64,000 nucleotides of DNA from Demequina silvatica. Lineage in GTDB: Bacteria > Actinomycetota > Actinomycetes > Actinomycetales > Demequinaceae. The stretch lies in NCBI RefSeq assembly GCF_000971215.1, contig NZ_BBMA01000003.1, forward strand, positions 62,001-126,000, written 5' to 3'. Positions 6,514 to 29,009 of this stretch are shown here, in pieces. Position 1 is the stretch's first letter, and the number at the start of each line of letters is the position of its first letter. The notes below the pieces were generated by a model, which was given only the letters and a program-made list of their open reading frames with translations, did not search any database and had not been told where the DNA came from. A program made the position numbers and the translations under genes.

Positions 6514-7682
6514 CCCAGCCGCTCGCCGCATCGTCCCGCGTGCTCGACGCGACCACCTACGACGCGATCCTGCTCGCCGGCTTCGGCGGCCCCGAGGGCC
6601 AGGGCGACGTCATTCCGTACCTGCGCAACGTCACCCGCGGCCGCGGCATCCCCGACGAGCGTCTCGAGGAGGTGTCGCACCACTACCGGCACTTCGGCGG
6701 CATCAGCCCCATCAACCAGCAGAACCGCGACCTCAAGGCCGCGCTCGAGGCGGAGATCGCGTCGCGCGGCCTCGGCCTGCCGGTGTACTGGGGCAACCGC
6801 TTCTGGGCGCCCTACTTCGCGGATGCGCTGAAGGAGCTGCACGCGGACGGCCACCGCAAGGTGCTGGTCCTGGTGACCACCGCGTTCTCGAGCTACTCGG
6901 GCTGCCGTGCGTACCGCGAGGACCTCGCGACCGCGCTCGCCGAGACGGGCCTCGAGGGTGAGGTCGTGCTCGACAAGGTGCGCCAGTACTTCGACCACCC
7001 CGGGTTCGTGAACCCCAACGTCGACGCCGTGCGGTCGGGCCTGCGCACGCTGCGCGAGCAGGGCCTGCTCGAAGGCGCCCAGGTGATGTTCGCGACGCAC
7101 TCGATCCCCACCGCGGCCGCGGACGTGTCCGGCCCGCGCGAGACCCTGCCCTCGGGCGCGGAGGTCGCCACCGGCGGCGAGAACGAGTGGTACGCCGGCG
7201 GCGGCTGGTACGTCGAGCAGCAGCGGGCCGTGTCCGCGCTGGTGATGGACCGCGTCGCCGACGAGTTCCCCGACGTGCCGTGGTCGCTGGTGTTCCAGTC
7301 CCGCTCCGGCTCGCCGGAGATCCCGTGGCTCGAGCCCGACATCAACGACGCCATCGAGGCGCTCCCAGAGTCCGTGAAGGGCCTGGTCATCTCGCCCATC
7401 GGCTTCGTCTCCGACCACATGGAGGTCGCGTGGGACCTCGACAACGAGGCCGTCGAGACGTGCGAGGGGCGCGGGATCGTTCCCGTGCGCGTGCCTACCG
7501 TGGGCGTCGACCCCGCCTTTGTCGCCGGTCTGATCGACCTGGTCGAGGAGCGCCACGTCGCCGCCGAGGGGGACACCCCGCGCGCCCGCGAGGCGCTCAC
7601 GGAGCTCGGTCCGTGGCAGGACGTGTGCCCCACGGACTGCTGCCTGGGCCGCGCTGCCAAGCCGACGGTGGCCTCCTGCTGA
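6510..7682 (+). CDS. hemH: Ferrochelatase, [2Fe-2S]-type coproporphyrin ferrochelatase
   Basis: This 390-residue protein inserts Fe2+ into coproporphyrin III (CpfC activity in actinobacteria). The N-terminus carries AILLAGFGGPEG and HFGGISPINQQN. The cluster cysteines typical of actinobacterial ferrochelatases are present: Cys132 in SSYSGCRAYRE and a C-terminal group CPTDCC (373, 377, 378), with an additional terminal Cys390. The catalytic region FATHSIP is about residue 190 and SPIGFVSDHMEV about 295. The GTG start at 6510 overlaps the hemQ stop. One GGACGATGCG copy (reverse orientation) lies at 6527-6536 within the first codons. Confidence 0.95.
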   Translation: MTQPLAASSRVLDATTYDAILLAGFGGPEGQGDVIPYLRNVTRGRGIPDERLEEVSHHYRHFGGISPINQQNRDLKAALEAEIASRGLGLPVYWGNRFWAPYFADALKELHADGHRKVLVLVTTAFSSYSGCRAYREDLATALAETGLEGEVVLDKVRQYFDHPGFVNPNVDAVRSGLRTLREQGLLEGAQVMFATHSIPTAAADVSGPRETLPSGAEVATGGENEWYAGGGWYVEQQRAVSALVMDRVADEFPDVPWSLVFQSRSGSPEIPWLEPDINDAIEALPESVKGLVISPIGFVSDHMEVAWDLDNEAVETCEGRGIVPVRVPTVGVDPAFVAGLIDLVEERHVAAEGDTPRAREALTELGPWQDVCPTDCCLGRAAKPTVASC

Positions 7683-23048: not shown

Positions 23049-23098
23049 CGGGTCACCCGGGCGGGCGCCGTCACCGGCCGCCGGTAGACTTGGCGCCC

Positions 23099-24184
23099 GT
23101 GGCTCTTACCATCGGAATCGTCGGTCTCCCGAACGTCGGCAAGTCGACCCTCTTCAACGCCCTCACCCGCGCCGAGGTGCTCGCCGCGAACTACCCGTTC
23201 GCGACCATCGAGCCCAACGTCGGCGTGGTCCCGCTGCCGGACGCGCGCCTGGGCCAGCTCGCCGAGGTGTTCGGCTCCGAGCGCGAGGTCCCCGCGACGG
23301 TGTCCTTCGTCGACATCGCCGGCATCGTCAAGGGCGCATCCGAGGGCGAGGGCCTGGGCAACGCGTTCCTCGCGAACATCCGTGAGGCGGACGCGATCTG
23401 CCAGGTGACCCGCGGCTTCGAGGACCCCGACGTGATCCACGTCGACGGCAAGGTCGACGCGGCCTCCGACATCGAGACCATCAACACCGAGCTGATCCTC
23501 GCGGACCTCCAGACCGTGGAGAAGGCGATCCCGCGCCTCGAGAAGGAGGTGCGCGCCAAGAAGGCCGACCCGAACTTCCTCGCTGCCGTGAACACCGCCA
23601 AGGGGATCCTCGAGGCGGGCACGGCGCTCAGCGCCGGAGCGGCCGCCGCGAAGCTGGACCTCGCGGACGTGAAGGAGCTCAACCTGCTCACGGCCAAGCC
23701 GTTCATCTACGTCTTCAACGTGGACGATGCGGTGCTCGCCGACGCGTCCAAGCGCGAGGCCCTCGCGGCGCAGGTCGCGCCCGCCGAGGCGATCTTCCTC
23801 GACGCGAAGTTCGAGGCGGAGCTGGTCGAGCTCACCGAGGACGAGGCGCGCGAGATGCTCGCCGAGAACGGCCAGGACGAATCCGGCCTGGACCAGCTGG
23901 CTCGGGTCGGCTTCGACACGCTCGGCCTCCAGACCTACCTCACGGCGGGCCCCAAGGAGGCGCGCGCCTGGACCATCCACAAGGGCTGGACCGCGCCCCA
24001 GGCCGCAGGCGTCATCCACACCGACTTCGAGCGTGGCTTCATCAAGGCCGAGGTGGTCCACTTCCACGACCTGCTCGAGACCGGATCGATGGCCGAGGCG
24101 AAGTCCAAGGGCAAGGTCCGCATCGAGGGCAAGGACTACGTCATGCAGGACGGCGACGTGGTCGAGTTCAGGTTCAATGTGTAG
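23099..24184 (+). CDS. ychF: Ribosome-associated ATPase/GTPase YchF (OBG family)
   Basis: The 361-residue product has the P-loop GLPNVGKSTLFNAL (about 8-21), VPLPDARLGQLAEVF, SFVDIAGIVKGASEGEGLGN (switch II), a coiled-coil insertion, and a C-terminal TGS domain with RAWTIHKG and the end GDVVEFRFNV. YchF binds ATP in preference to GTP and associates with ribosomes. The GTG at 23099 lies 8 nt after TAGACT. Its last 27 bp recur twice downstream (24465-24491 and 26331-26357), suggesting that the 3' end is an integration target. Confidence 0.95.
   Translation: MALTIGIVGLPNVGKSTLFNALTRAEVLAANYPFATIEPNVGVVPLPDARLGQLAEVFGSEREVPATVSFVDIAGIVKGASEGEGLGNAFLANIREADAICQVTRGFEDPDVIHVDGKVDAASDIETINTELILADLQTVEKAIPRLEKEVRAKKADPNFLAAVNTAKGILEAGTALSAGAAAAKLDLADVKELNLLTAKPFIYVFNVDDAVLADASKREALAAQVAPAEAIFLDAKFEAELVELTEDEAREMLAENGQDESGLDQLARVGFDTLGLQTYLTAGPKEARAWTIHKGWTAPQAAGVIHTDFERGFIKAEVVHFHDLLETGSMAEAKSKGKVRIEGKDYVMQDGDVVEFRFNV
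24158..24184 (+). repeat. att-like site, ychF 3' end (copy 1)
   Basis: GTGGTCGAGTTCAGGTTCA followed by ATGTGTAG is the ychF 3' terminus including its stop codon. It matches the second copy at 24 of 27 positions and the third at 22 of 27. It would be the left junction of an element inserted at the end of ychF. Confidence 0.55.
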
Positions 24185-24238
24185 TTCGCCGATGTCTGGC
24201 TCGGACGCATCGGTCTTTCCGACCCGTAGTCTCACGTC

Positions 24239-24427
24239 ATGAGCCAGAACACGCGGCAGGCGCTGATCGAAGACATCATCGAGGGACTTGCCCATGGCGA
24301 TGTTGCCGATGGTCTGCCGGCGTTCGCAATTGTGCGTACGAGCGACGGGTCTGGCATCAAGGTCGATCTCGGCGAGCCGGATCGGGTCTACATCGTCAGC
24401 GTCGCGGAAGCGCCTCGCGTCGACTAG
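24239..24427 (+). CDS. Hypothetical 62-aa protein inside the ychF-linked unit
   Basis: The product begins MSQNTRQALIEDIIEGLAHG and continues with a short beta-rich part (AIVRTSDGSGIKVDLGE, RVYIVSV). I do not recognise it. ATG 24239 follows TAGTCT (24227-24232) by 6 nt, the leaderless layout seen across the window, which supports expression. It is the only gene between the first two copies of the ychF 3' end. Base composition is less GC-biased than in neighbouring genes. Confidence 0.5.
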   Translation: MSQNTRQALIEDIIEGLAHGDVADGLPAFAIVRTSDGSGIKVDLGEPDRVYIVSVAEAPRVD

Positions 24428-24448
24428 TTGCGGCATCTGCTCAGACGT

Positions 24449-24491
24449 TGTTCGGCTCCCGAATGCGGTCGAGTTCAGGTTCAACGTCTAG
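24449..24491 (+). repeat. att-like site (copy 2)
   Basis: The last 27 bp repeat the ychF end. Over 43 bp the site matches copy 3 at 37 positions. Read in the ychF frame it encodes VRLPNAVEFRFNV and a stop, so it looks like the 3' end of a foreign ychF-like gene. Confidence 0.6.
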
Positions 24492-24612
24492 TCCCCGTTC
24501 AACCTCTGGTCGCTGATCCGAGGCAGGTGATCGGGTCGGGTATCGGGGTAGTTGCCGAGCGCGCTGGTGTCGCGCGACGCCCGGATGCGGAATTGGGCTC
24601 TGCGCGGGATGC

Positions 24613-25209
24613 CTACGCGGTGGGCTGGAGCGCGCCGAAGCTTCGGCGGAGGAGAACGGCCGAGCTCTCGACAGCATCGGCCTCCGCCCACGCGGTGAGG
24701 GCGATGTCGAAGCAGGCGAGCGAGGCCTGGACGATCGCTTCGGCGCGCAGATCCCGGTGGTCGCCTTCGAGGCGTTCGGCGACGACGGGCGTAAGCAGGC
24801 GGGCCCACAGCAGGTGCTTCTCGAGGTTCCTTGCTCGTAGCGCCGGGGTACTGCCGAGGACCCGCATCGCCTTCCTGCCCTGTGCCTCGTTCCGGCTCGG
24901 GGTCGCGAGCAACGCCTCGTAGGACGTGAGGAGCGCGTCCCAGATGGGTTCCTCGGAGGGACGGGCTACGAGCTGATCCCGAACGTGCTCGCCCCAGCCG
25001 GCAGGATCGCCGATCACAGTGTCTTCTTTCGCGGGGAAGTACCGGTGAACGCTGCGCGGCGAGACGCCGACCGCGGCGGCGATCTGCTCGACGGTGACGT
25101 TGTCGAACCCGTGCTCATCGAAGAGGTCCACCGCGACCTCGGAGATGCGTGCACGGACTGCGTCGCGCGCGATGGCGCGCATGCCGCCGGGCTTGGTGAC
25201 CTCGCTCAT
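24613..25209 (-). CDS. TetR/AcrR-family transcriptional regulator
   Basis: This 198-residue protein has an N-terminal TetR helix-turn-helix, AVDLFDEHGFDNVTVEQIA followed by GVSPRSVHRYFPAKED (about 25-60), and a helical ligand-binding domain. The ATG at 25209 lies 6 nt after TATGAT on the minus strand. It is divergent from the aldo-keto reductase gene, so it probably represses that gene and itself in response to an aldehyde or similar ligand. Both genes sit between copies 2 and 3 of the ychF 3' end, so they travel as one unit. Confidence 0.9.
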   Translation of the reverse strand: MSEVTKPGGMRAIARDAVRARISEVAVDLFDEHGFDNVTVEQIAAAVGVSPRSVHRYFPAKEDTVIGDPAGWGEHVRDQLVARPSEEPIWDALLTSYEALLATPSRNEAQGRKAMRVLGSTPALRARNLEKHLLWARLLTPVVAERLEGDHRDLRAEAIVQASLACFDIALTAWAEADAVESSAVLLRRSFGALQPTA

Positions 25210-25293
25210 AGATTCATCATAGCGCGCCACAAGTGGCAGAGACTGACACGTTAGGCGTATTATGTCGTGAAGTCACACGAGAAGGGACACCCC

Positions 25294-26229
25294 ATGGAAC
25301 AGCGCATCCTCGGCCGTCAGGGCCTCGCCGTCTCCGCCATCGGCTACGGCGCGATGGGCACCGCAGTCGGCTACGGTCCGAGCGACGACACCGAGTCCAT
25401 CGCGGCGATCCGCGGCGCGCACGACCTCGGCGTCACGCACTTCGACACCGCCGAGATGTACGGCTGGGGCGTCGGAGAGCAGCTGCTCGGCACCGCGCTC
25501 GCGCCCATCCGCGAGCAGGTCACCATCGCCACCAAGTTCGGCTTCACGCCCACGTATGCCCCCAACTCGCAGCCTGACCACGTCCGCACCGTGGTCGACA
25601 ACAGCCTGCGCAACCTCGGCGTGGACCACATCGACGTGCTCTACCAGCACGTCCATGACCCGACCGTGCCCGTCGAGGACGTCGTGGGCGTGATGAAGGA
25701 GTACGTCGACGCCGGCAAGGTGAGGTATCTCGGCTTGTCCAACACGACGCCCGATAACGTGCGGCGCGCACACGCCGTCCAACCGATCTCGGTGCTCCAG
25801 TCCGAGTACTCGATCTTCGCCCGCCAGTCCGAGGCGTTCCTCCCCGTGCTCGAGGAGCTCGGCATCGGCCTTGTCGCCTACTCGCCGCTCGCGCGCGGCT
25901 TCCTTTCCGGCGCGGTCCAGCCCCGCTCCGCCTACGACGCGACCGACTTCCGCCAGCGCATCCCGTACTGGGCCCCCGAGCACTACGACGCCAACGTCGC
26001 CATCGTCGAGGCGCTCACGGCGCTCGCCGAAGAGAAGGGTGCGACCCTCGCGCAGCTCGCCATCGCCTGGCTGCTCGCGCAGCGGGACTACATCGTTCCC
26101 ATCCCCGGCTCGCGCAACCCCGCACGCGTCGCCCAGAACATCGCTTCCGCAAGCATCGTCCTGACCGAGGCTGACCTCGCGCGCATCGCTGAGATCGCAC
26201 CGACCGGAGGAGTGGTGGCGGGACGCTGA
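25294..26229 (+). CDS. Aldo/keto reductase
   Basis: This 311-residue NADP(H)-dependent TIM-barrel oxidoreductase reduces aldehydes or ketones. The catalytic tetrad is visible: Asp51 and Tyr56 in HFDTAEMYGWG, Lys81 in ATKFGF and His119 in YQHVHD. The C-terminal cofactor site PIPGSRNPARVAQN is also present. ATG 25294 follows GAAGGGA; a -10-like TATTAT is at 25258-25263. It is probably controlled by the divergent TetR gene. The substrate is unknown. Confidence 0.92.
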   Translation: MEQRILGRQGLAVSAIGYGAMGTAVGYGPSDDTESIAAIRGAHDLGVTHFDTAEMYGWGVGEQLLGTALAPIREQVTIATKFGFTPTYAPNSQPDHVRTVVDNSLRNLGVDHIDVLYQHVHDPTVPVEDVVGVMKEYVDAGKVRYLGLSNTTPDNVRRAHAVQPISVLQSEYSIFARQSEAFLPVLEELGIGLVAYSPLARGFLSGAVQPRSAYDATDFRQRIPYWAPEHYDANVAIVEALTALAEEKGATLAQLAIAWLLAQRDYIVPIPGSRNPARVAQNIASASIVLTEADLARIAEIAPTGGVVAGR

Positions 26230-26314
26230 TCCTGGATCCGGCGTGACCGGCGGACACCTCGAGCGGTGCGACGCTCGAGGTACCCGCCTGCTTCGTTCGC
26301 GAGTCGTCACCGGG

Positions 26315-26357
26315 TGTTCGGTTACGGAACGCGGTCGAGTTCACGTTTAACGTCTAG
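26315..26357 (+). repeat. att-like site (copy 3)
   Basis: The site ends GCGGTCGAGTTCACGTTTAA plus CGTCTAG (26331-26357), the ychF 3' end with five changes. In the ychF frame it encodes VRLRNAVEFTFNV and a stop. Three of the six changes against copy 2 are synonymous in that frame. The higBA operator starts on its last two bases. Confidence 0.55.
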
Positions 26358-26384
26358 CGTTATTAACGCTAAGCGTTATAGATT
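26356..26384 (+). promoter_or_regulatory. higBA promoter and operator
   Basis: AGCGTTATTAACGCT (26356-26370) is a 15-bp palindrome (7-bp arms, 1-bp centre), followed by a third half-site AAGCGTTA (26371-26378). A TAGATT -10 box (26379-26384) lies 6 nt before the higB GTG. Antitoxin HigA typically represses its own operon through such repeats. Confidence 0.6.
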
Positions 26385-26390
26385 GCTCGT

Positions 26391-26672
26391 GTGATCAGAT
26401 CGTTCGGTGACAAGAACACCGAGCGTCTGTGGCGTCGGGAGAAGGTGCCGTCGATCGATCCGCGCGTGCAGAAGGCGGCCATTCGCAAGCTCGCCCAGAT
26501 CCACGCGGCTCGATTCCTCGACTCGCTGCGGGTTCCGCCTGGCAATCGTCTCGAGTTGTTGAAGGGCGATCGCGCGGGCCAGCACAGTGTCCGTGTCAAT
26601 GACCAATGGAGAATCTGTTTCACCTGGAGAGAAGGAAGTGCGGAGGATGTCGAACTCGTCGACTACCACTGA
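26391..26672 (+). CDS. higB: HigB/RelE-superfamily toxin (mRNA interferase)
   Basis: This 93-residue basic protein follows the HigB family: IRSFGDKNTERLWRREKV at the N-terminus, a central helix, GDRAGQHSVRVNDQWRICF with the conserved Arg/Trp strand, and a terminal VELVDYH (His93). HigB cleaves mRNA on ribosomes. The GTG start is leaderless. The toxin precedes the antitoxin, as is typical of hig loci, and overlaps it by 26 nt. Length and motifs look intact. Confidence 0.92.
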   Translation: MIRSFGDKNTERLWRREKVPSIDPRVQKAAIRKLAQIHAARFLDSLRVPPGNRLELLKGDRAGQHSVRVNDQWRICFTWREGSAEDVELVDYH

Positions 26673-26961
26673 GAAGTGGGCTCCCATCCACCCTGGCGAG
26701 GTGCTGATGGAGGATTTCATCAAGGGCTTCGAGATCACCCAGAACAAGCTTGCGGTGGCGATCGGCGTGCCTCCCCGACGTATCAACGAGATCGTTCACG
26801 GCAAGCGCGCCATCACCGCCGACACGGCGCTTCGACTGGGCCGGTACTTCGGTATCGATCCGCAGTTCTGGCTCAACCTCCAGGCACACTATGAGCTCGA
26901 GGTCGCCGAGGACCGGATGGCCGCGCAGATCGCTGCCATCACGCCGATCCAGGTCGCCTGA
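26647..26961 (+). CDS. higA: HigA-family antitoxin, XRE-type helix-turn-helix
   Basis: This 104-residue protein starts PIHPGEVLMEDFIKGFEIT-like after a short tail, then has the HTH ITQNKLAVAIGVPPRRINEI and GKRAITADTALRLGRYFG, followed by DPQFWLNLQAHYELE, all diagnostic of HigA antitoxins. It neutralises HigB and represses the operon. ATG 26647 follows CGGAGG directly, consistent with translational coupling to higB. Confidence 0.93.
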   Translation: MSNSSTTTEKWAPIHPGEVLMEDFIKGFEITQNKLAVAIGVPPRRINEIVHGKRAITADTALRLGRYFGIDPQFWLNLQAHYELEVAEDRMAAQIAAITPIQVA

Positions 26962-27142
26962 GCGCCGCTGATCAGATCGCGGCGATCGAGCCCTTGCGGG
27001 CGACCTGACTTCACGCAGCACAGGAGAGGGCGCCCGGCGAGGGAACCCGGTCGGCACTGGACCGCCGCGGAGTGCTCCGTCCGCATCGCGCGGCCGCGCG
27101 ACGCTTCCCCTGCCTTCTGGTTGCTCCGGCTACCCTGGGCGC

Positions 27143-27472
27143 GTGCCTGAGGCTGCGATCACGCCCGAGGCTCGCGCAGTGCGCGGGCTCATCGACGCGC
27201 GACGCACAGAGTTCGACCAGCTGCTCGCCCGCTACGGGGCGACCCGTCCGCGGCTCTTCGGATCCGTCGCGCGCGGTACCTCCGGCGAAGGCAGCGATAT
27301 CGACATCCTCGTGGATATGGATCCCGCGGCCGGCAACCTGCTCCTGCGGGCCTCGGGCCTGATGGAGGAGGTTCGCGCGCTCCTCGGGCGCGATGACATC
27401 GACGTGTTCCCGGAGCAGCTGCTCAAGGAGTCGGTTGCGCGATCGGCGCTCGCGGACACGGTCACCTTGTGA
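27143..27472 (+). CDS. MNT-type minimal nucleotidyltransferase, 109 aa
   Basis: The protein has the nucleotidyltransferase core PRLFGSVARGTSGEGSDIDI (about 45-64) with the two Asp of SDIDILVD, so it should transfer AMP or another nucleotide. Such MntA-like proteins are usually antitoxins that AMPylate HEPN toxins, but no HEPN gene is next to it. It has a GTG start 6 nt after TACCCT, and its stop overlaps the start of a P-loop kinase gene (GTGA). This suggests a functional pair with that kinase. It lies beside higBA in the accessory region. Confidence 0.85.
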   Translation: MPEAAITPEARAVRGLIDARRTEFDQLLARYGATRPRLFGSVARGTSGEGSDIDILVDMDPAAGNLLLRASGLMEEVRALLGRDDIDVFPEQLLKESVARSALADTVTL

Positions 27473-28131
27473 GTCGAAAGGCCGGGAAGCGCTCGGCGGG
27501 CCCGTCGGGCGAAGCGGTCGAACAACTTGTGGCGAGCGTGGCGGAGGCGAGTCGCGATTCGCCGATCGTGGTCGGGATCTCCGGGTACTGCGGCGCCGGC
27601 AAGTCGACACTCGCGCGGCACCTCGCATCCGTGGTCGACGGTGCCGTCCGAGTGCGTGGCGACGACTTCCTCGACCCGACGCGCTCCCATCGGAGATCAA
27701 CGGACTGGGACGGCGTCGAGCGGACGCGGTTGAAGGCTGAGCTCCTCGACCCGTTCAGGGCGCAGCGCGCAGGCGCCTTCCGGCGTTACGACTGGAGCCG
27801 GCGCTGCCTCGGTGACCCCGAGCCCGTGCCACGTGCGAACGTGCTGGTCGTCGACCTGATCGGGTTGTTCCACCCCGAGGTGCTTCCTTCGCTGGATGTG
27901 AAGGTATGGGTCGACGTCGACCTCCAGACAGCGAAGGAGCGGGGGCTCGCGCGCGACGCACGGCTCAGCCGCGACCACCGTCGGCTCTGGAACGAGGTGT
28001 GGATCCCCAACGAGCGTGACTTCGAGAGCCGCTACTCGCCCCGCAGCGCCCCAGGCGTGCTGACCTACGACGGAAGGGGCCCACTCGCAATCGGAGACGC
28101 GGGCCACTCGAGCTCGCGCGAGCTCACGTAG
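27469..28131 (+). CDS. P-loop kinase of the uridine-kinase-like family, 220 aa
   Basis: The product has Walker A GISGYCGAGKSTLARHL (about 37-53), VRGDDFLDP, RYDWSRR, a hydrophobic strand VLVVDLIGLFHPEV, a lid-like AKERGLARDAR and WNEVWIPNERDFESRYSP. This matches uridine/phosphoribulokinase-type kinases of unknown substrate. It is translationally coupled to the nucleotidyltransferase gene upstream. Its last 67 bp overlap the convergent pseudouridine synthase gene, so the extreme C-terminus may be atypical. A role in a toxin-antitoxin pair is speculative. Confidence 0.8.
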   Translation: MSRKAGKRSAGPSGEAVEQLVASVAEASRDSPIVVGISGYCGAGKSTLARHLASVVDGAVRVRGDDFLDPTRSHRRSTDWDGVERTRLKAELLDPFRAQRAGAFRRYDWSRRCLGDPEPVPRANVLVVDLIGLFHPEVLPSLDVKVWVDVDLQTAKERGLARDARLSRDHRRLWNEVWIPNERDFESRYSPRSAPGVLTYDGRGPLAIGDAGHSSSRELT

Positions 28132-29009
28132 TCCCGCTCCACGCCGTCGAGCGGATCGGTGAACGTGAGCCGCCGCGCGATCAGTCTGAGCGGCTCGGAG
28201 AAGTCCGCCGGGTCGGCGTCGACCACCTCCGGGTACAGCGGGTCGCCCACGATCGGCAGCCCGGCGTCGGCCAGCTGCAGGCGTAGCTGGTGCGTCTTGC
28301 CCGTGACGGGCGTGAGCCGGTACCGCGCGAGGTCGCCGCGCACCTCGAGCACCTCCACCAGCGTCTCGGCGTTGGGCTCACCGGGCACCAGCTCGGCCTG
28401 CAGGCTCCCGCGCCGCTTCTCGATCCTCCCCATTAGGCGACGGGGAAATGCGAGAGACGGATCGAACCGGGCCAGCGCCTCGTACGTCTTCGCGACCTCG
28501 CGCGACTGGAACACCCCCGCGTACGCGCCCCGCACCTCGCGACGCGTGGTGAAGGCCAGCACCCCCGCGGTCAACCGGTCCAGCCGGTGCGCGGGCGCGA
28601 GCTCGGGCAGGTCGAGCGCGACCCGCAGCTTCACCAGCGCGGTCTCGCGCACGTGCATGCCGCGCGGGGTGGTGGCCAGGAAGTGCGGCTTGTCCACCAC
28701 CACCAGGTTCTCGGTGCGGTCCAGGACCGGCACCGGGAACGGGACCGGCACCTCCGGCGCCAGCGGCCGATGGAACCACACGAAGGCGTGAGCGCGGAAC
28801 GGCTCGTCGCCGGTCAGCGGCGCACCTCTCTGATCCACGAACTCCCCGGCCGCGAGTCGCGACTCCACCTCGGCGGACGCGGGCAGGCGATCGAGGAGGA
28901 ACTCCCGCATGGTCGTCCACCCTGGCACCCCCTCGGGTCCCGGGCCGGGCGTACGCACCCACGCCGCGTCGAGGCCGTGGCGCTGGGGCAGCGGGGAGCG
29001 CGGCGGCAT
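28065..29009 (-). CDS. RluA-family pseudouridine synthase
   Basis: This 314-residue enzyme converts a uridine in rRNA or tRNA to pseudouridine. The catalytic motif AHRLDRLTAGVLAFT contains the essential Asp. VVDKPHFLATTPRG precedes it, and the C-terminal TGKTHQLRLQLADAGLPIVG and DPLY are conserved in RluA/RluC/TruC-type enzymes. An N-terminal extension (about 90 residues) carries a weak S4-like part (LLDRLPASAEVESRLAAGEF). The ATG at 29009 is assumed. The 3' end overlaps the convergent kinase gene. Confidence 0.88.
   Translation of the reverse strand: MPPRSPLPQRHGLDAAWVRTPGPGPEGVPGWTTMREFLLDRLPASAEVESRLAAGEFVDQRGAPLTGDEPFRAHAFVWFHRPLAPEVPVPFPVPVLDRTENLVVVDKPHFLATTPRGMHVRETALVKLRVALDLPELAPAHRLDRLTAGVLAFTTRREVRGAYAGVFQSREVAKTYEALARFDPSLAFPRRLMGRIEKRRGSLQAELVPGEPNAETLVEVLEVRGDLARYRLTPVTGKTHQLRLQLADAGLPIVGDPLYPEVVDADPADFSEPLRLIARRLTFTDPLDGVERDYVSSRELEWPASPIASGPLPS

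Follow-up and report, generated by a model that had tools for sequence, protein, structure and literature searches.

How did the 3' end of ychF come to stand three times in a row in the genome of Demequina silvatica? The question arises from a stretch of 64,000 nucleotides (the window; NCBI RefSeq GCF_000971215.1, contig NZ_BBMA01000003.1, positions 62,001 to 126,000), part of a 2.9-Mb assembly of 17 contigs (G000; other genomes are likewise given G numbers, and loci L numbers). The ychF gene (23090..24184, forward strand, Pfam YchF-GTPase_C) ends in a 27-bp sequence (24158-24184) that recurs at 24465-24491 (24/27 identical) and at 26331-26357 (22/27), the last two copies agreeing at 37 of 43 positions. 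These repeats had been reported in an earlier inspection of the letters (hereafter the sequence-only reading), and recomputation returned the same positions and identities. Chance origin was ruled out, since the 27-mer is matched three times in the window vs. not at all in 100 dinucleotide shuffles. A dispersed repeat unrelated to ychF was likewise rejected: a search of G000 yields the three copies plus one match with three mismatches (reversed control pattern, 0), and the motif is confined in G000 and clustered in relatives. There is little doubt that the locus is an array of mobile units at ychF.

Repeated insertion at the ychF 3' end, with the coding end restored each time, had been proposed from these repeats and is supported by the varied states of the locus in relatives, where the ychF loci were read over as much as 20 kb. 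At this locus the relatives have one recognised site, one unit, different units or up to ten sites, which excludes that all are alike. Thirty-four Demequina ychF loci of 44 genomes were counted (left out: G007, G019, G041, G042, G049, G053-G056 and G057, the last because its contig L149 is without ychF). The ychF end occurs at least twice in 30 of these loci, at least three times in 21 and once in four, with a maximum of ten sites. One recognised site need not mean an empty locus: the only site of G009 has a cassette behind it that belongs to a shared family. In the 14/21 loci in which an rluA-type pseudouridine synthase gene was found, it stands between about 0.5 kb (G021) and about 9 kb from ychF. 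Altogether 159 sites in 54 loci bound 106 units; the site calling is loose, and some weak sites may be false. The bounded Demequina units (n = 72) have a median length of 1120 bp (range 307-5939 bp), and 62 are under 2 kb.

Most sites consist of more than a copy of the ychF end. A conserved arm of 22-23 nt, CAGAGGTTRTTCGGCTACGGAAY, directly precedes the ychF-like 27-mer in 100/159 sites (consensus CAGAGGTTaTTCGGCTACGGAAC; accepted with at most 4 mismatches among 14 core positions). The arm score never exceeds -19.4 at 44 ychF ends, the median for arms being 34.2. A left motif, TTCCGGTTCAACCTCTGG or a variant, follows 29/159 sites vs. 3/7950 random positions. Because the arm precedes and the left motif follows the sites, the layout of a unit is left motif (in some), cargo, arm and 27-mer. 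In the window, the last 27 bp of ychF, without an arm upstream, represent the attB-like insertion target, now the junction with unit 1 (24185..24491, forward strand, 307 bp). This unit carries a 62-amino-acid (aa) open reading frame (ORF; 24239-24427) without a Pfam match and ends in an arm (24442..24464) and copy 2 (24465..24491). Unit 2 (24492..26357, forward strand, 1866 bp) begins with the left motif TCCCCGTTCAACCTCTGG (24492..24509), encodes a TetR regulator (24613-25230, reverse strand) and an aldo-keto reductase (about 25294 to 26229, forward strand), both recognised by Pfam, and ends in an arm (26308..26330) and copy 3 (26331..26357); arms and copies lie on the forward strand. The gene for HigB and that for its helix-turn-helix antitoxin begin from copy 3. 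The unit contents were as first described. The 43-bp match of copies 2 and 3 is also real, and exists because both carry the arm, which ychF lacks. A second arm type (like AGATGGTTSTACGTGCCGGAAC) stands before the same 27-mer in L119, L125, L133, L214 and L227; it perhaps reflects a second integrase specificity.

The arm pattern is present in 30/44 Demequina genomes (up to 8 matches each; reversed control, 0). The matches cluster at a single position in each genome; G057, with matches on two short-ended contigs, is the exception. In a sample of the order, 64/396 genomes and 14/109 genera match with at most 3 mismatches (reversed control, 2), namely 28/34 Demequina and 36/362 other genomes. Exact matches were found in Brevibacterium, Brachybacterium, Kocuria, Arthrobacter, Microbacterium, Nesterenkonia and Corynebacterium, among others.

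Units are reused with other neighbours in other species. Single-linkage clustering gave a higBA-containing family of 30 units, a TetR/aldo-keto reductase family of 11, a third of 9, smaller ones and 67 singletons, the largest family being partly chained through neighbouring cassettes. The TetR/aldo-keto reductase unit, of which homologues occur in other Demequina loci, stands directly behind ychF in G020; elsewhere the slot before it holds 307 bp (window), 910 bp (G047) or 633 bp (G043 and G052), and unit 1 of the window has no match in G047 outside its site. Between G043 and the window this unit is 93.2% identical and ychF 87.1%. For G047 the corresponding identities are 94.9% (ychF), 90.9% (rluA) and 92.3% (unit 2), and from 26331 to 28106 the two genomes differ by 4 mismatches (99.8% identity). 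This block, whose left edge is the first base of the copy 3 27-mer, could represent one homologous exchange. Related higBA units occur in Demequina, Brachybacterium and Brevibacterium loci, each starting at the half-site TTYAACGT and mostly preceded by TTTAACGT.

The position of strand exchange could be approached through linkage within the 27-mer. In a test covering 150/159 sites and only 58 same-left cassette pairs, columns 18, 21, 26 and 27 track the right neighbour (0.74, 0.90, 0.95 and 0.95 vs. 0.57, 0.60, 0.65 and 0.57). The predicted crossover lies within GAGTTC-MGSTT-Y and is narrowed to columns 12-18. In G243, G175 and G167 a serine integrase gene stands about 40-200 bp behind ychF, and the match to ychF ends after GAGTTCCGS, the same place as the linkage switch. 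In the locus pairs L198/L211, L201/L212 and L205/L213, which have a serine integrase gene behind ychF, the last YchF residues are swapped for a new tail.

Which enzyme could have moved the units? The sequence-only reading had noted that no integrase is present at the locus and had placed the enzyme elsewhere. In G000, the closest PF00589 gene on the contig with ychF is at a distance of about 185 kb, and PF00239 gives no match in the genome. That reading had also proposed to look for tyrosine recombinase genes beside ychF in relatives, an expectation that was not borne out: across 40 genomes, PF00589 genes are absent from the surroundings of both the ychF region and the motif, and the closest one on a shared contig is about 150 kb off. 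The searches run found no integrase gene at the arrays apart from truncated serine integrases; recombinase queries match 6/54 array loci, all of them truncated starts of one large serine integrase gene (PF00239+PF07508).

Homologues of this serine integrase occur in 14/297 genomes (E <= 1e-60). In the three best the gene start is close to a 27-mer of the ychF type that is not in ychF, and another three are located behind ychF itself; the remaining loci have neither arrangement, except G143, where ychF shares a locus with four sites and a broken serine integrase gene. A scan of viral contigs with the bare 27-mer gave ten stretches, including the phage contig L187, in which a cassette-type site lies between a tyrosine integrase and the large serine integrase. 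In five loci an attP-like site stands beside the integrase gene, its 27-mer 20-51 nt from the gene start: 40 nt in L187 and, in bacterial genomes, 28 nt in L194, 20 nt in L195, 51 nt in L196 (aligned start) and 38 nt in L220. With a weight matrix derived from array arms only, the arm of L187 ranks 1 of 22406 positions, that of L195 1 of 8660 and that of L196 3 of 5988. In Brevibacterium the integrase occurs in 8/57 genomes, truncated in six and at full length in two (G406 and G415). The intact 514-aa gene of G406 (L220/L225) lies 38 nt from a top-scoring site, which higB directly follows. Truncated gene starts stand beside a site in eight genomes (G193, G166, G124, G305, G296, G370, G355 and G413), and the distance to the 27-mer was 38 nt in eight relics measured; G413 combines ychF, a relic and several sites in one locus. 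A ninth, less certain relic (G040) is counted apart, because its adjoining site is degenerate and was not called by the scan. This serine integrase is probably the ancestral or the actual enzyme of the arrays. The insertion model of the sequence-only reading stood, and the arm, the spread across the order and the link to a serine integrase were what it had missed.

Other sources of integrases were less informative. Viral contigs have no match to the exact arm pattern, and the only relative of the two L187 integrases found there was L187 itself. Plasmids gave two weak site matches and one distant integrase. Related serine integrases occur in 127 phage records, at less than 60% identity among the 40 of the 127 matches listed. 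One tyrosine integrase common to the array genomes was considered and rejected, there being no PF00589 gene nearby and an unusual pair in 6/44 Demequina genomes only. Adjacent pairs of unusual integrase-like genes, unlinked to arrays, were seen in L161/L170/L176 (G017), L166/L171/L177 (G023) and L172/L178 (G004). In the viral contigs L180, L183 and L189 a ychF-end site lies beside a distant tyrosine integrase match, two of them with a longer ychF tail, and in G005 (L035, 6984-7064, ychF orientation) a longer tail is repeated 2.4 kb behind ychF; this pattern perhaps represents a third type of ychF-end insertion.

The scheme to which these data point, with a probability of roughly 0.8, is that a serine integrase, acting in trans, inserted non-autonomous cassettes with attP-like ends at the 3' end of ychF. 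Each cassette would carry a few genes at most, open with the terminal ~12 bp of a ychF-like end (TTYAAYGTSTAG) and close with the arm and GYGGTSGAGTTCMGS. A large serine integrase could be supplied by phages or other elements sharing the ychF target. It would recombine a circular cassette (attP-like: arm and 27-mer, sometimes with a left motif) with the 3' end of ychF as attB, or with a junction already in place. With the crossover in GAGTTC-MGSTT-Y, the incoming DNA would restore VEFRFNV-stop. The cassettes appear to derive from elements with an integrase gene at the right end. Standard site-pairing rules do not account for stacking, which calls for an attB that is re-formed or for looser rules; with the same 12 bp restored by every insert, a junction might go on serving as attB, or else the enzyme might be permissive.

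Several points weigh against this scheme. Good arms are missing from 59/159 sites (44 of these are ychF ends), the left motif accompanies only 29/159, and the site consensus shows no clear dyad (best, 19/40 pairs). Column 13 tracks left and right neighbours alike (0.62), and the left-side linkage is weak. The arm of L194 gives no match (rank 797 of 8672), and in both L187 and L194 a tyrosine integrase flanks the site as well. The 16-kb stretch of G406 is without ychF, and in 13.6 kb of G415 no site accompanies the full-length gene. No Demequina, of which the set held at least 20, is among the 14/297 genomes with the integrase, a lack that G000 shares for PF00239 as a whole; the enzyme would therefore come from outside, or the arrays are silent. 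The serine integrases studied, according to PMC3783163, reject other site pairings. Excision and transfer of the units are presumed; that the arrays are active today in Demequina is a tentative suggestion, somewhat short of even odds.

Alternatively, the cassettes could be moved by a tyrosine integrase, either of the phage type seen at L187 and L194 or XerC/XerD, the serine integrase genes being mere neighbours. Identity of target and element over 27 bp and a target at the 3' end of a gene are typical of tyrosine integrases, as a figure legend of PMC5704250 also has it. Tyrosine integrase homologues adjoin the site in L187 and L194. G206 and G260 have sites and only two PF00589 genes, with no PF00239 gene, and a satellite phage of Streptomyces, MulchRoom (L190, OQ784832.1), has a ychF-end-like 25-mer (7353-7377) near its tyrosine integrase gene, which may reflect another integrase class using the ychF end. 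This explanation is nevertheless rather improbable, for no PF00589 gene lies near the arrays in the 40 genomes, the non-Xer integrases of Demequina do not form one orthologous group, L195 and L196 have no tyrosine integrase match, and what remains of integrases at unit ends is of the serine type.

A stronger competitor, though still unlikely, holds that the arrays are old and immobile, that species differ through deletion and homologous recombination between long shared arrays, and that the 43-bp repeats are scars. No resident enzyme was found in the Demequina arrays, the window has lost its final site, and the 99.8% block shared with G047 could have arisen by a single homologous exchange. Immobility does not sit well with clean alternative units in one slot, with related higBA units in three genera, each from the half-site TTYAACGT, or with a crossover-like linkage switch inside the 27-mer; these are evidence that units once moved site-specifically, not that they still do. 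Least probable by far is a divergent integron remnant, a cluster of attC sites lacking an integron integrase (CALIN). Gene-sized cassettes in a row with a terminal recombination site and no integrase recall such clusters, and two cargo matches are to Cass2, an integron-associated family. No IntI exceeded the TIGR02249 cut-off in the 44 Demequina genomes, all of which have weaker matches (14 control genomes also gave 0, so that a positive control is lacking), no strong common fold was apparent among the sites, and the association is with serine integrases. By RNA energies and crude shuffles, 100 sites had mean z values of -0.55 and -0.53 by strand (9 and 12 below -2) and random windows -0.26 (4 below -2); DNA energies, for three sites only, gave z from -3.3 to +2.3.

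The remainder of the window array begins with the higBA cassette (26358..26971, forward strand; higB 26391-26672, higA about 26647-26961), which lacks its own right-end site and is 94.6-95.5% identical to units in G006 and G023. An MNT-type nucleotidyltransferase gene (27143..27472, forward strand, Pfam), related to cassettes in other arrays, is followed by a kinase-like P-loop gene (27469..28131, forward strand, Pfam) at the end of the array. No recognisable site marks that end, which seems to lie near 28095, based among other things on comparison with the G023 flank (L038). The rluA-type pseudouridine synthase gene (28065..29009, reverse strand) flanks the hot spot. No HEPN partner is evident for the MNT-type gene and the kinase-like gene behind it, and at the end of L119 an MNT-like gene is paired with a second small gene. 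In Demequina ychF ends, including 24158-24184, Arg is often AGG or AGA, accompanied by TTT or AAT, despite the high-GC genome, as if the end had been replaced by incoming DNA.

Cargo ORFs were picked mechanically (114 from 72 units) and matched 77 Pfam families. Among the 25 of these listed are aldo-keto reductase (8), glyoxalase (4), TetR (3), HEPN (3), GyrI-like (2) and Cass2 (2), with single matches to AbiH, SelO, MFS, EamA and others; the 25 of 45 PADLOC families listed include Pycsar cyclase (2 members), bSEFIR (1) and the candidate system PDC-M05 (up to 5). With its Pycsar, AbiH, bSEFIR and HEPN matches, the ychF region stands out as a hot spot for genes of stress response and defence. 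The ORFs point both ways (63 and 51), unlike those of typical integron cassettes. It is conceivable, if somewhat less than an even bet, that Actinomycetales possess their own integron analogue here: a functioning system of gene capture at the end of ychF, in which large serine integrases from passing phages or elements bring in and stack gene-sized cassettes with minimal attP-like ends, bearing toxin-antitoxin, stress and anti-phage genes, and exchange them among species. In that case an integron-like lifestyle would have evolved on two occasions, around enzymes that are not related. The arrays supply att sites and candidate integrases open to direct testing.

The literature searched (openly licensed PMC texts only) contained no description of cassette arrays at ychF, and the known systems resemble them in different respects. 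Integrons and CALIN share the row of gene cassettes, a recombination site at the end of each cassette and, in CALIN, the lack of a local integrase; the ychF arrays differ in having no IntI over the cut-off or clear attC-like fold, in their serine-integrase link and in a target inside a coding gene. Actinobacteria have no complete integrons and a few CALIN, according to part of PMC9024848. Cis-mobilizable elements (CIMEs), as part of PMC5704250 has it, are stripped of integration genes and keep attL and attR. Both kinds of element are enzyme-less, att-flanked and in tandem at a gene end. The 106 bounded ychF units are att-flanked and without integration genes, no search having been aimed at transfer genes; an integrase-bearing parent with the same site is represented by the relics in eight genomes and by the intact gene at the same place in G406. 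The relics fit an origin as decayed integrase-bearing elements. CIMEs, as far as described there, are decayed integrative and conjugative or integrative and mobilizable elements in tandem, whereas the ychF units are gene-sized and reordered across species.

Prophage PPH005 of pneumococci adjoins ychF according to part of PMC8637289; it lies between a DUF951 gene and ychF, has a different sequence, and shows no cassette array there. MulchRoom is alike in its 25-mer and differs in its tyrosine integrase, again with no cassette array seen. The staphylococcal cassette chromosome mec and the Enterococcus cassette chromosome, in the portion of PMC6222049 used, rely on the large serine recombinases CcrAB, the rlmH 3' region and direct-repeat att sites of about 50 bp, with several attR per genome. 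Large serine recombinase, the 3' end of a conserved gene as target and direct-repeat att sites are thus common to both; those islands measure 21-78 kb and carry ccrAB, while the ychF units have a median of 1.1 kb, are enzyme-less and reach ten sites in a row. The target here is ychF, not rlmH, and no search for ccrAB homology was made. On the best reading, the ychF arrays work like the accretion of these chromosome cassettes and like CIMEs and look like CALIN and integrons, without being integrons; what sets them apart is the stacking of gene-sized, enzyme-less cassettes with attP-like ends at ychF.

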